From the IMG/VR virus record IMGVR_UViG_3300042321_001506, positions 1-21,284 of that record: 21,284 nucleotides of DNA; one strand, 5' to 3'. The stretch is from a virus. The notes under the pieces are model-generated. The model was not told the DNA's origin. It saw nothing but the letters and a program-made list of their open reading frames with translations, and ran no database searches. The position numbers and the translations under genes were made by a program. Below are positions 2,686 through 16,998 of this stretch, in pieces (position 1 is the stretch's first letter; the number at the start of each line of letters is the position of its first letter).

Positions 2686-3150
2686 ATGACATTCGCATAC
2701 GGACGTAATCTGCTTCCATCAACTGTTGGGTTTGATAGACTTCTATCTACCCTGGACGAAGCACTAAATATTCCCGACAAGGTTCTAACGTCATTTCCAC
2801 CATACAATATCGCAAAGATTAGCGAAGATAAGTATGTGATTGAGCTAGCAGTTGCTGGTTTCAAGAGAGAAGAAATCGACATTACCTTGGAAGACAACAA
2901 ACTAACAGTTCAAGGGAACGCAAAGAAAGATGAGGACAACGGCAAAACTTATTACCATCGTGGCATTGCTCTTCGTAATTTTACCCGTGTATTTACTCTC
3001 GCTGACACGGTAGTAGTAAAGTCCGCTGATCTTGTTGACGGAATGCTTGTGATTGAACTTGAAAATGTGATTCCGGAAAATAAGAAGCCTCGCAAGATTC
3101 TTCTGAACGACAAGAACTTTACAACCGAAAAAGTTCTCGCTTCAAAATAA
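2686..3150 (+). CDS. hsp20: Small heat-shock protein, IbpA/Hsp20 type
   Basis: An ATP-independent holdase chaperone of 154 aa. The alpha-crystallin domain runs from about residue 38 to 140, starting FPPYNIAKISEDKYVIELAVAGF. It contains the IbpA-type block GIALRNFTRVFTLADTVVVKSAD and then DGMLVIELENVIPENKKPRKILL, where the KIL stretch resembles the C-terminal I-x-I/V anchoring motif. The N-terminal region begins near FDRLLSTLDEAL, as in IbpA. AAGGAG at 2674-2679 lies 6 nt before the ATG. The gene stands alone between its own promoter and the terminator at 3191, so it is probably monocistronic. hsp20 is a known accessory gene of marine T4-like phages, thought to help virion assembly or host proteostasis during infection. 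Confidence 0.95.
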   Translation: MTFAYGRNLLPSTVGFDRLLSTLDEALNIPDKVLTSFPPYNIAKISEDKYVIELAVAGFKREEIDITLEDNKLTVQGNAKKDEDNGKTYYHRGIALRNFTRVFTLADTVVVKSADLVDGMLVIELENVIPENKKPRKILLNDKNFTTEKVLASK

Positions 3151-3157
3151 TTTCTGA

Positions 3158-3167
3158 CTAAATAATC
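3158..3167 (+). promoter_or_regulatory. CTAAATA late-promoter-like box
   Basis: CTAAATAATC at 3158-3167 resembles the TAAATA core of T4-type late promoters and lies in the 40-nt gap between the hsp20 stop and the terminator hairpin. Transcription from it would run straight into that hairpin. The motif is short and AT-rich, and similar strings occur inside genes (for example near 3907), so this is weak. Confidence 0.2.
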
Positions 3168-3190
3168 TCACTTAATCTTAACATCTAACC

Positions 3191-3227
3191 AGTCACCGTG
3201 GGTATTGTACTCACGGTGACTTTCTTC
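3191..3227 (+). terminator. Rho-independent terminator after hsp20
   Basis: A perfect 10-bp stem, AGTCACCGTG (3191-3200) with CACGGTGACT (3212-3221), extends inward by one G-T and one G-C pair around a 7-nt loop. It is followed directly by a T-rich tail (TTTCTTCT). This is the clearest terminator in the window and separates hsp20 from the speD pair. Confidence 0.85.
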
Positions 3228-3243
3228 TAGAAAGGATACTTTG

Positions 3244-3600
3244 ATGGAACAATACTGGGGTTATCACGCAATGCTTGATTGTCGCGCCTGCGATATTGAA
3301 TTAATCAAGAGTTATGATAATGTTTATAATTTTGCAAAGAGTCTTGTGAATGCTATTGATATGAAAGCCTTTGGAGAACCTCAGATTGTTCATTTTGGCG
3401 AAGGAAATAAAGCTGGATTTACTCTCGTTCAACTCATCGAAACAAGTAATATCTGTGCTCATTTCTGCAATGATACAGGTGACGCATACATTGATGTGTT
3501 TTCCTGCAAGCCCTATGATCGTGATGTGGTAAGAGATCAGATCATTCAATTCTTCAATCCACGACAGATCACAGTCAACTACATTGAACGTCAGGCATGA
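3244..3600 (+). CDS. Divergent SpeD-family pyruvoyl decarboxylase paralogue
   Basis: A 118-aa protein of the AdoMet decarboxylase fold (WGYHAMLDCRACD at the start, YIDVFSCKP near the end). Gapless alignment with the SpeD encoded next door puts TSNICAH (67-73) over the autocleavage segment ESHISIH. S68 aligns with the Ser that becomes the pyruvoyl group, H73 with the processing His and C88 with the catalytic Cys. The Glu before the cleavage site is Thr, and the His after it is Asn. The TWPE segment is replaced by FCND. It may therefore still self-process but act on another substrate. From memory, phage SpeD homologues with L-ornithine or L-arginine decarboxylase activity have been reported. 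A regulatory partner of the neighbouring SpeD is the other option. AAAGGA at 3230-3235 supports ATG 3244; an in-frame TTG at 3241 is less likely. Confidence 0.8.
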   Translation: MEQYWGYHAMLDCRACDIELIKSYDNVYNFAKSLVNAIDMKAFGEPQIVHFGEGNKAGFTLVQLIETSNICAHFCNDTGDAYIDVFSCKPYDRDVVRDQIIQFFNPRQITVNYIERQA

Positions 3601-3603
3601 GAG

Positions 3604-3948
3604 ATGACTGTATCATACATGGGTCGGCATGTTATTGCTGATTTGCATGATGTATCTGCGGAACTTCTTGGCTCAATTGATTTTTGGAAAGAAATCCTAA
3701 TTGATGGAGCCAAGAAGTCTGGCGCAACAGTATTAAGCGATCACTTTCATCACTTTGGTGATGGATATGGTCTTACTGGTGTAATCGTTCTTGCAGAGAG
3801 CCATATTAGCATTCACACATGGCCAGAAAAAAACTACGCGGCAATCGATGTATTCATGTGCGGGACATGTGATCCTGAAGTTGCAGTAGATCATATTACA
3901 AGCAGACTAAATAGTATTGTCAAAAAAGACTTGATTTATCGAAAGTAA
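3604..3948 (+). CDS. speD: S-adenosylmethionine decarboxylase proenzyme
   Basis: Makes decarboxylated AdoMet, the aminopropyl donor for spermidine. The 114-aa protein matches short bacterial/archaeal SpeD. It has the N-terminal GRHVIADLHD, a GATVLSDHFHHFG stretch, and the diagnostic VLAESHISIHTWPEKNYAAIDVFMCG. Autocleavage is expected between E65 and S66 to give the pyruvoyl group; H71 and C86 are the other conserved active-site residues. It starts 3 nt after the divergent paralogue, so the two are probably co-translated and may act together. No spermidine synthase is visible here, so the product would depend on a host or distant phage enzyme. Its first third contains a long inverted repeat (3663-3718). 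Confidence 0.96.
   Translation: MTVSYMGRHVIADLHDVSAELLGSIDFWKEILIDGAKKSGATVLSDHFHHFGDGYGLTGVIVLAESHISIHTWPEKNYAAIDVFMCGTCDPEVAVDHITSRLNSIVKKDLIYRK
3663..3718 (+). repeat. 12-bp perfect inverted repeat inside speD
   Basis: ACTTCTTGGCTC (3663-3674) is the exact reverse complement of GAGCCAAGAAGT (3707-3718). After one A-G mismatch the arms continue with seven more pairs (3676-3682 with 3699-3705, two of them G-T). The result is a 20-position stem with an apical loop of about 16 nt, within codons for LLGSIDFWKEILIDGAKKS. Confidence 0.8.
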
Positions 3949-3984: not shown

Positions 3985-4308
3985 ATGAGATATATTGGCT
4001 ATTCAGTCTCTCGCTGTGTGCGCGATATCGTAAAGAAGCGTGTGAATATTTTAGCAATTGAAGTCGTCATTGGTCGCACAATGATTGAGAATGAGCAACA
4101 CATTGCCGAAGTTTCTCGTGGCTATCATTCACTACCAAAATCTGATTATAGATCATGGGCTGATCTAGATCTTGACGCTTGTCAGAAAGTATTGCTTGAA
4201 CTATATCGTGATGGCAAGCTTCATCAGCCAAGACTATATGGCAAATATCCTATTCGCATGGATAATCATTGGGGTGTGATTGCTCCATTTCCCATGAGCG
4301 CCTTCTAA
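3985..4308 (+). CDS. Hypothetical phage protein, 107 aa
   Basis: I do not recognise this protein. It is 107 aa, basic in its first third (SRCVRDIVKKRVN), then has a mixed segment RGYHSLPKSDYRSWADLDLDACQKVLLELYRDGKLHQPRLYGKYP with one predicted amphipathic helix, and ends HWGVIAPFPMSAF. There is no signal peptide or membrane segment. GGGAGA at 3972-3977 lies 7 nt before ATG 3985; an in-frame TTG at 3970 would sit before that site and is rejected. It is the first gene after the promoter at 3931-3959, and its stop overlaps the next start (TAATG). Leading position suggests an early-expressed protein, but no function can be assigned. Confidence 0.75.
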   Translation: MRYIGYSVSRCVRDIVKKRVNILAIEVVIGRTMIENEQHIAEVSRGYHSLPKSDYRSWADLDLDACQKVLLELYRDGKLHQPRLYGKYPIRMDNHWGVIAPFPMSAF

Positions 4309-7107: not shown

Positions 7108-7973
7108 TGCAAAAAAAGCCACTAAAAATAGGATTTGCTGATGTCTGCACATCCGAATTCTATGAAACTATTCTAAGTCAAAGATATGAATTGACTATTG
7201 ATAATGAAAATCCAGACTTTCTTTTCTTTGGCGATGAAAATTTTGGAACAAGAAATCTTCAATATTCAAAAGATAAGTGCATAAAGATATTTCATACTGG
7301 CGAAAATCGTAGACCAGAAAACTATGATTGTCATTATGCGATGACATTTGATCACAATCCAAATCAATGGCATTATAGACTTCCCGGCTGGGCATTAGTT
7401 CCTTTCTTTTACAAGAAATTTGATTTTAATCATATATTCAAAGCACACGAATTAAAATATGAAAAAGACAAGTTTTGCGTCTTCATTCATAGAAATGGAA
7501 GCAATAACATAAGAAACGCCGTGTTTCATGAATTATGTAAATATAAAAAAGTAGATAGTGCCGGACCTCTATTTAACAATATTGGACAAATTATTAGTCC
7601 AGATTATGATGCAAAGCTTGATTTTATCAAAAGCTATAAGTTTGTTCTTTCATTTGAAAATAGTCCACATCCAGGATATGTGACTGAAAAAATCATGGAT
7701 GGATTCTATGTGAATTCTATTCCAATTTATTGGGGATCAGCAACAGTAGATTTAGATTTCAATGAAAATAGTTTCATCAATGCAGGTAAATTTAACACAA
7801 TAAAAGACTTGATTGATGAAATAATTCGTATTGACAATGATGATCAATTATATTATAATATAATTTCTCAAACAAAATTTAAACACAATATTCCGCCATC
7901 ATGTATGATATATGATAACTTTTTGAATTGGTTTGACGCAATTGTGTACAATAAACTATATGTGAGAAACTAA
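7107..7973 (+). CDS. GT10 alpha-1,3/1,4-fucosyltransferase
   Basis: Transfers fucose from GDP-fucose to a glycan acceptor. The 288-aa protein has the GT10 hallmarks. The N-terminal half contains IFHTGENRRP (61-70), with the conserved Glu E66 aligned to the proposed base of the Helicobacter enzymes. The donor-binding block is FENSPHPGYVTEKIMDGF (183-200) followed by IPIYWG (205-210). Then come FNENSFINAGKF and LIDEIIRID, as in bacterial FucT. There is no membrane anchor and no C-terminal heptad repeat as seen in H. pylori. The TGATG junction fixes the start at 7107. GDP-fucose synthase is encoded four genes downstream, which supports fucose or a close 6-deoxyhexose as donor sugar. Confidence 0.92.
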   Translation: MQKKPLKIGFADVCTSEFYETILSQRYELTIDNENPDFLFFGDENFGTRNLQYSKDKCIKIFHTGENRRPENYDCHYAMTFDHNPNQWHYRLPGWALVPFFYKKFDFNHIFKAHELKYEKDKFCVFIHRNGSNNIRNAVFHELCKYKKVDSAGPLFNNIGQIISPDYDAKLDFIKSYKFVLSFENSPHPGYVTEKIMDGFYVNSIPIYWGSATVDLDFNENSFINAGKFNTIKDLIDEIIRIDNDDQLYYNIISQTKFKHNIPPSCMIYDNFLNWFDAIVYNKLYVRN

Positions 7974-16717: not shown

Positions 16718-16998
16718 AATCCGAAAAAATCATCACATCAAGCTTTTCCGAAAACGGCGCCAAAAGCATGGCGAAGTTGTTGACAACCAAGTACAATTGT
16801 ACTATAATAGACAATCCAAAATTTGATAAGAATAGTGGTATGTGGATTACCACGTATCATGATCCCTCGTTAGGAAAAGATGATGAAACTAAAATTACTA
16901 AAAACAGACAAACTATTGAAAGCATTGGAACCAATAAAAGAACCGGCAGATCTAAGCTCGGAGCAATGGAGAATTTGGGAAAAAGAACAAAGAAGTAA
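16714..16998 (+). CDS. Hypothetical phage protein, 94 aa
   Basis: Not recognised. The 94-aa product is lysine-rich and polar, with no membrane segment (SSFSENGAKSMAKLL, then WITTYHDPSLGKDDETKITKN, ending GKRTKK). Its ATG overlaps the preceding stop as at most junctions here, which favours a real gene. Its last 119 nt lie inside the following gene in another frame. The overlap is larger than elsewhere in the cluster, so the C-terminal third may have been gained by extension of the upstream frame. The basic tail could bind nucleic acid, but that is a guess. Confidence 0.55.
   Translation: MKSEKIITSSFSENGAKSMAKLLTTKYNCTIIDNPKFDKNSGMWITTYHDPSLGKDDETKITKNRQTIESIGTNKRTGRSKLGAMENLGKRTKK

Follow-up and report, generated by a model that had tools for sequence, protein, structure and literature searches.

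A candidate polyamine module in a T4-like phage: tandem genes for a predicted SpeDC-type ornithine decarboxylase and an S-adenosylmethionine decarboxylase

What would a phage do with two genes of the AdoMet decarboxylase family placed side by side? An earlier note on this DNA had described a tandem SpeD pair at 3244-3948 of a 21,284-base virus record, the whole of which we refer to as the window, with one canonical copy and one copy with a rewritten active site. Both frames were found at that place, head to tail on the same strand and separated by a 3-base gap, and both matched the Pfam family AdoMet_dc (Table 1). We call the upstream gene copy 1 and the downstream gene copy 2; their spacing suggests that translation of copy 2 may be coupled to that of copy 1. 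In the window the pair comes next after T4-like genes for clamp loader subunits, dUTPase and Hsp20. The clamp loader has 2466 relatives in total, and the 15 listed, with identities up to 58%, are from T4-like phages of Synechococcus, Pelagibacter and Stenotrophomonas and from unnamed marine viruses. The gene after copy 2, at 3985-4308, gave no Pfam match at E 0.01, and has a counterpart also in two of the related viral loci (L015 and L017).

Table 1. Features of the tandem pair and of the sequence before it. Positions are those of the window. Invariance over 28 rows refers to an alignment that joins the window to 27 viral loci picked from the 80 for diversity.
Feature	Position	Strand	Remarks
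CTAAATA, T4-type late-promoter-like motif	3158..3164	+	AATAAATA or TATAAATA in five relatives
Stem-loop with T-rich tail, between hsp20 and copy 1	3191..3221	+	Terminator or leader hairpin; z -5.35
Ribosome-binding site-like GAAAGGA	3230..3236	+	7 nt before ATG 3244; in 8/8 aligned sequences, window included
Copy 1 ORF	ATG 3244 to TGA 3600	+	118 aa; predicted SpeDC-type pyruvoyl L-ornithine decarboxylase
Q63	3430..3432	+	Fits SpeDC diagnostic residue 1 (Gln); invariant in 28/28 rows
T67-S68-N69	3442..3450	+	Signature Thr, Ser predicted to form the pyruvoyl, then Asn; T67 and S68 invariant in 28/28 rows
H73 and F74	3460..3465	+	Processing His; F74 fits diagnostic residue 3; invariant in 28/28 rows
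Y82	3487..3489	+	Fits diagnostic residue 4 (Tyr); invariant in 28/28 rows
C88	3505..3507	+	Catalytic Cys, equivalent to T. maritima C83; invariant in 28/28 rows; role as given in the accessible text of PMC10407285
Copy 2 ORF	ATG 3604 to TAA 3948	+	114 aa; canonical class 1b S-adenosylmethionine decarboxylase proenzyme
E65-S66-H67 of copy 2	3796..3804	+	Predicted cleavage site, from the sequence and the alignment to 1tlu

Judged by its sequence, copy 2 is an ordinary AdoMet decarboxylase (AdoMetDC). It matched Pfam AdoMet_dc with an E-value of 1.2e-32 (112.9 bits at a cut-off of 25 bits, profile positions 1-95 of 107), and its score of 121.3 bits against TIGR03330, the NCBI equivalog for AdoMet decarboxylase, is over the cut-off of 75.65. 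The frame holds the motif ESHISIHTWPE and is alike in sequence to cyanophage SpeD and to the class 1b AdoMetDC of Thermotoga maritima (1tlu, 1vr7), with an E-value of 3.2e-23 for 1tlu. Among named phages 139 records matched copy 2, mostly cyanophages; identity was 37-44% in the 40 records listed, and one record outside these lay at 60-80%. For the SpeD of phage S-PM2, restoration of spermidine in E. coli has been reported (PMC9992855).

Copy 1 matched the same Pfam family (PF02675; E-value 1.3e-19, 70.9 bits at the same cut-off of 25 bits, profile positions 1-106 of 107), and scored 35.1 bits against TIGR03330, under the cut-off of 75.65. In a gapless alignment S68, H73 and C88 of copy 1 are spaced exactly as S66, H71 and C86 of copy 2, the E-S-H of copy 2 is replaced by T-S-N and HTWPE by HFCND; the retained processing residues, the changed triplet and the loss of TWPE were thus found as the earlier note had read them. 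A structure prediction, which the note had also called for, was run on copy 1, and the AlphaFold model (pLDDT 95.6) was predicted to have the fold of T. maritima AdoMetDC (1vr7 and 1tlu; TM 0.86-0.87, rmsd 1.5, 19% identity). The likeness to the T. maritima enzyme is one of fold (TM 0.86, 19% identity); copy 1 is without the ESH...TWPE motif. When solved structures were searched by sequence, copy 1 found one AdoMetDC entry, 2iii, with an E-value of 0.005. Its relatives in named phages comprise 23 records, all distant with at most 33% identity, and the best match among them is Sinorhizobium phage phiN3 (32%).

The changed residues of copy 1 correspond to a published enzyme class. SpeDC enzymes are pyruvoyl-dependent L-ornithine decarboxylases (ODCs) derived from SpeD, which keep the processing residues and for which Gln, Thr, Phe and Tyr in the central region are given as diagnostic in the accessible text of PMC10407285. 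Q63, T67, F74 and Y82 of copy 1 are these four residues in the published order. The four positions were mapped by means of residue, order and SpeD-SpeDC fusion proteins, of which the assayed Desulfotignum fusion has 278 aa and serines 79 and 229, and loses its ODC activity when changed to S229A (PMC10407285). In the family of one Desulfamplus locus (L187) we found AdoMet_dc genes in 80 of 86 genomes. The survey of fusions took in the 30 best-matching loci from a longer list, and 29 of these were inspected (L262-L290). At 16 of the 29 the fusion frame can be 278 aa with serines exactly at 79 and 229, and it is by this length and these serine positions, not by name, that they are tied to the assayed Desulfotignum enzyme. 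All 16 carry Q, T, F and Y around S229 with the spacing found in copy 1. Two fusions of different length (L264 and L281) also have all four residues, and in three others (L268, L270 and L290) Arg replaces Gln. At six inspected loci the second site was not recognisable, the second domain being decayed, as is likewise described for fusions in PMC10407285, and at two there was no fusion frame.

All four residues were present in 207 of 420 rows, a redundant count as several loci were entered twice. Within these, Asn follows the serine in 99 of 101 viral rows (redundant), and T-S-N is found in 54 of 106 bacterial rows (redundant and partly selected by motif). As T-S-N occurs in bacterial as well as viral rows, we regard it as normal for the SpeDC class. 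The rewritten active site, for which the earlier note had proposed a new substrate, is hence not a new one; it agrees with the SpeDC signature of PMC10407285 and is common to phage and bacterial relatives.

In a tree of 63 rows, 24 AdoMetDC-like rows stand on one side of a branch with support 100/98, and copy 1 lies outside. The AdoMetDC side holds copy 2 and the SpeDs of T. maritima and phage S-PM2, while copy 1 belongs to a group of 13 rows (12 viral and one MAG; support 96/89) on a side shared with SpeDC rows from bacteria and with two ODC domains of fusions. After removal of eight signature columns the AdoMetDC branch was still at 100/98, with the bootstrap not settled. The forks within the SpeDC side are weak, the columns being few. 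PhiN3, on a long branch, is placed among the SpeDC rows, which by themselves therefore make no single clade; SpeDC plus phiN3 as a single clade was not rejected by the AU test (p 0.23). The same test gave p 0.03 when the 12 phage copy-1 rows were joined to the AdoMetDCs. It should be noted that the tree program warned of long branches meeting. The earlier note had named a place inside the ordinary AdoMetDC clade as a result that would refute its reading; copy 1 came out on the other side at 100/98, but joining copy 1 alone to the AdoMetDCs gave p 0.24 in the AU test, and 0.16 without the signature columns, neither of which is significant.

The 63 rows were taken from a set of 104, from which rows shorter than 85 aa, rows sharing at least 72% identity with an earlier row of the set, and nine loci present twice (that of the window and others reached by the genome searches) had been excluded. 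The rest of the 104 were dropped by hand, in part as long or degenerate, namely the SpeDs of L057 and L260, decayed second domains of fusions and four viral AdoMetDCs without a parsable motif, and further rows were thinned to shorten the run. A quick tree of all 104 rows gave a comparable split, with 39 rows on the AdoMetDC side (SH-aLRT 98) and a weak branch (77) setting off the SpeDC side. An ordinary AdoMetDC was rejected as an identity for copy 1 on its TIGR03330 score together with the tree placement.

Relatives of copy 1 were encoded in 234 viral stretches, of which 80 were kept, making up 37 groups at 95% copy-1 identity. Ser, His and Cys along with the four specificity residues are kept in 79 of the 80 loci, the sole exception (L029) having Arg for S68. 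An AdoMetDC-clade gene is directly adjacent in 36 loci, 33 times downstream and 3 times upstream: a canonical AdoMetDC stands directly downstream in 28 and directly upstream in 3, and in five a distant AdoMetDC-clade protein is encoded downstream, two of the five distant alleles being placed in the AdoMetDC clade by the tree. As the five adjacent pairs with a distant allele show, it seems that an AdoMetDC-type partner is kept although the allele differs. In two more loci the AdoMetDC-clade protein is on the opposite strand, and in the fetched stretch of 42 loci, 5 of them with a flank of at most 400 bases, no second SpeD was seen. At the level of groups, the first members of 8 are adjacent pairs. 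Seven long records (58-197 kb) were available; three have two AdoMet_dc genes, about 31 kb apart in one of them, and in the other four copy 1 was the only one found. Spermidine synthase, arginase/agmatinase and PLP ODC/ADC families were found in none of the seven, which may be incomplete records.

Of ten comparisons, six gave an estimate of dS for both genes, and in these dN/dS lay at 0.019-0.055 in copy 1 and at 0.015-0.075 in copy 2; the four wider ones had a saturated dS for copy 1. Copy 1 is under strong purifying selection. Chance or a pseudogene was excluded as an account of copy 1 by the low dN/dS and by the retention of residues in 79 of 80 viral loci.

At three of the loci where a distant AdoMetDC with an HWYNE motif replaces copy 2, a convergent gene for an HNH endonuclease lies directly behind it (L015:3615-4340, L016:3709-4350 and L028:3712-4437, minus strand). 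The frame in L016 matched HNH_3 with 47.5 bits, and those in L015 and L028 look alike. Despite the replacement of copy 2, copy 1 is little changed, at 97% in L015 and L016, and so is the next gene of L015; the HNH gene behind the replaced allele looks like a homing-type exchange of speD. L029 and L063 have a replaced allele with no HNH gene visible. The L029 locus ends soon after, and its copy 1 (2923-3354), which reads ETRN and adjoins the replaced AdoMetDC allele, is a dead copy or a sequencing error. At L057:1793-2887 (minus strand), and also in L058, a 365-aa frame combines an AdoMetDC domain (71.6 bits) with a GIY-YIG-like endonuclease domain, the latter with 23.1 bits in L057, below the cut-off of 27. 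The L057 frame adjoins a copy-1 relative on the opposite strand.

From bacterial genomes 80 of 327 loci with copy-1 relatives were kept. The signature was found in 78 of them, a figure that is partly circular as the search motifs held part of the signature, and some of the top matches (L163-L170) may be MAG sequence of phage origin. The flanks of 32 of the 80 loci hold a canonical AdoMetDC together with SpeE, which is on the SpeDC strand in 28. In one alphaproteobacterial MAG a 457-aa frame (L209:4863-6233) fuses a SpeDC domain to spermidine synthase, with a further speE and a speD nearby.

We consider it highly probable that the pair is a polyamine module of a T4-like phage, in which a SpeDC would make putrescine, an AdoMetDC would make decarboxylated AdoMet, and the SpeE of the host would make spermidine. 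Copy 1 would cut itself between T67 and S68, with S68 turning into the pyruvoyl cofactor, and decarboxylate L-ornithine to putrescine. Copy 2, probably co-expressed with copy 1, would decarboxylate AdoMet to the aminopropyl donor, and the host spermidine synthase would presumably join the two products to spermidine during infection. Taken together, the observations favour the first of two proposals in the earlier note, a self-processing decarboxylase of ornithine or arginine next to a true AdoMetDC, and of the two substrates ornithine seems the likelier.

That copy 1 is instead an arginine decarboxylase (SpeDA), or a dual arginine/ornithine enzyme, is in our view unlikely; the agmatine would then need a host agmatinase or AIH/NCPAH. 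The SpeD homologue of pelagiphage HTVC201P is an arginine decarboxylase, and among the phage SpeDC ODCs assayed in PMC9992855 UCP01 also used arginine, with a trace in UCP04, so phage precedents for such activity exist. However, the homologues of pelagiphages HTVC104P and HTVC109P have the Thr but are without Q, F and Y at these positions, the full set of Q/T/F/Y is published for ODCs (PMC10407285), and the arginase/agmatinase family was seen in 0 of 7 long relatives. SpeDA enzymes are recognised as AdoMetDC-like proteins without the conserved Pro, and copy 1 is without this Pro, yet the ODC signature is there.

The main caution on reading copy 1 as an ODC comes from phiN3, whose SpeD has three of the four residues. 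It is reported to be a true AdoMetDC that complements delta-speD and restores spermidine, yet it is placed in the ODC clade of the published tree (PMC9992855), and it stands beside the SpeDC rows on a long branch in our own. Should copy 1 be a divergent AdoMetDC of the phiN3 kind, the phage would have two AdoMetDCs, and two such genes adjacent to each other would be redundant. PhiN3 has Q, F and Y in common with copy 1, but Asp for Thr, so that its D-S-H stands against the T-S-N of copy 1; with this difference and the 35.1 bits of copy 1 against an equivalog cut-off of 75.65, we regard this possibility as highly improbable.

The second proposal of the earlier note was a dead activator partner like the trypanosome prozyme. 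Copy 1, with little or no catalysis of its own, would then activate copy 2 within a heteromer; this is disfavoured by the data, and we give it very little credence. Class 1b AdoMetDCs are oligomeric, the genes are tandem and closely spaced, and the L029 copy without the pyruvoyl Ser still has its partner. Prozyme-like activators are, on the other hand, defined by loss of the processing residues, which copy 1 has not lost and which are present in 79 of 80 viral loci. No second SpeD lies in the fetched stretch of 42 of the 80, the gene is the sole AdoMet_dc gene in 4 of 7 long records, and a dead partner need not retain the ODC signature. The trypanosome system likewise has two paralogues in one organism, and a chain of the heterodimer 5tvm is in the fold list of copy 1, but unlike the prozyme copy 1 keeps all processing residues and often occurs with no partner nearby.

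Returning to the pair as a decarboxylase module, we speculate, as an elaboration that is itself improbable, that the paralogues form a mixed oligomer with two pyruvoyl cofactors, where each decarboxylase, that for ornithine and that for AdoMet, regulates the other. Phages would thereby have an equivalent of the SpeD-SpeDC fusion of bacteria and of the AdoMetDC/prozyme pair. A mixed oligomer would place the pairing under selection, and a copy-2 slot with a distant allele would then still hold an AdoMetDC-clade protein, as seen in five loci.

Just before copy 1, at 3158-3221, a late-promoter-like motif is followed by a covarying terminator-like hairpin in all eight close sequences. The hairpin has 13 stem pairs in 8 of 8 sequences, and in 4 of these pairs both bases differ in one sequence or more; it was not seen in L030. 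Terminator-like sites in the window are not in excess (14 against 10.3 expected). The late-promoter-like motif occurs 5 times in the window against 3.6 expected by chance, a count so near chance that the case for it rests on conservation. The call of CTAAATA depends on a late-promoter consensus, and the window contains no ATAAATA, the core of T4 late promoters. Perfect 12-of-12 matches to a sigma-70-type promoter lie at 2597-2626, 7831-7859 and 16780-16808, one of them ahead of hsp20, and promoter-like sites as a whole show no excess (81 against 74.7 expected).

Several known systems resemble the pair in part. The SpeDC enzymes, including those of phage LBP and UCP01-04, have the same Ser/His/Cys and Gln/Thr/Phe/Tyr as copy 1 (PMC10407285, PMC9992855), and the phage enzymes, compared by description, are alike in length (117-122 aa) and in their phage setting. 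Unlike copy 1, they are not described with an adjoining AdoMetDC gene in the accessible text of PMC9992855. Bacterial speD1/speD2 pairs and SpeD-SpeDC fusions (Desulfotignum phosphitoxidans, Ca. Omnitrophica; PMC10407285) have the AdoMetDC and ODC paralogues clustered or fused, as here. The bacterial clusters hold speE, whereas none was found in the phage window and its long relatives, and the ODC-type gene comes first in the phage pair, unlike in the bacterial clusters as far as these are described in the accessible text of PMC10407285.

Tandem SpeD paralogues are also present in Microcystis phage MaAM05 (MW495066), where the second SpeD is without the Gln, the Thr and the Pro of TWPE and has speE and a gene of the arginase family for neighbours, an arrangement that fits a route from arginine. 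The cluster (L246:1486-4264) consists of a canonical AdoMetDC, the second SpeD, SpeE and the arginase-family gene, and possibly encodes a complete route from arginine to spermidine in a phage record. For phage PhiMa05, which is perhaps the same as MaAM05 although the names differ, one SpeD is mentioned in the accessible text of PMC8093824.

One phage genome with more than one polyamine enzyme is described in PMC9992855, the enzymes being AdoMetDC plus SpdSyn. In the literature searched, supplements aside, we came across no phage described with an ODC/AdoMetDC pair. The SpeDC class, its presence in phages and the bacterial speD/speDC pairs are already published, and each of the two enzymes is ordinary within its family; the pair in a phage appears to be unreported. 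Both genes are short and assayable by published methods, and close relatives in which the AdoMetDC allele is swapped or the genes are fused offer a way to probe interaction of the partners. A phage module for both precursors of spermidine, one from ornithine and one from AdoMet, would extend the picture of AdoMetDC plus SpdSyn, and it predicts that the phage needs spermidine and relies on the spermidine synthase and the ornithine of its host.
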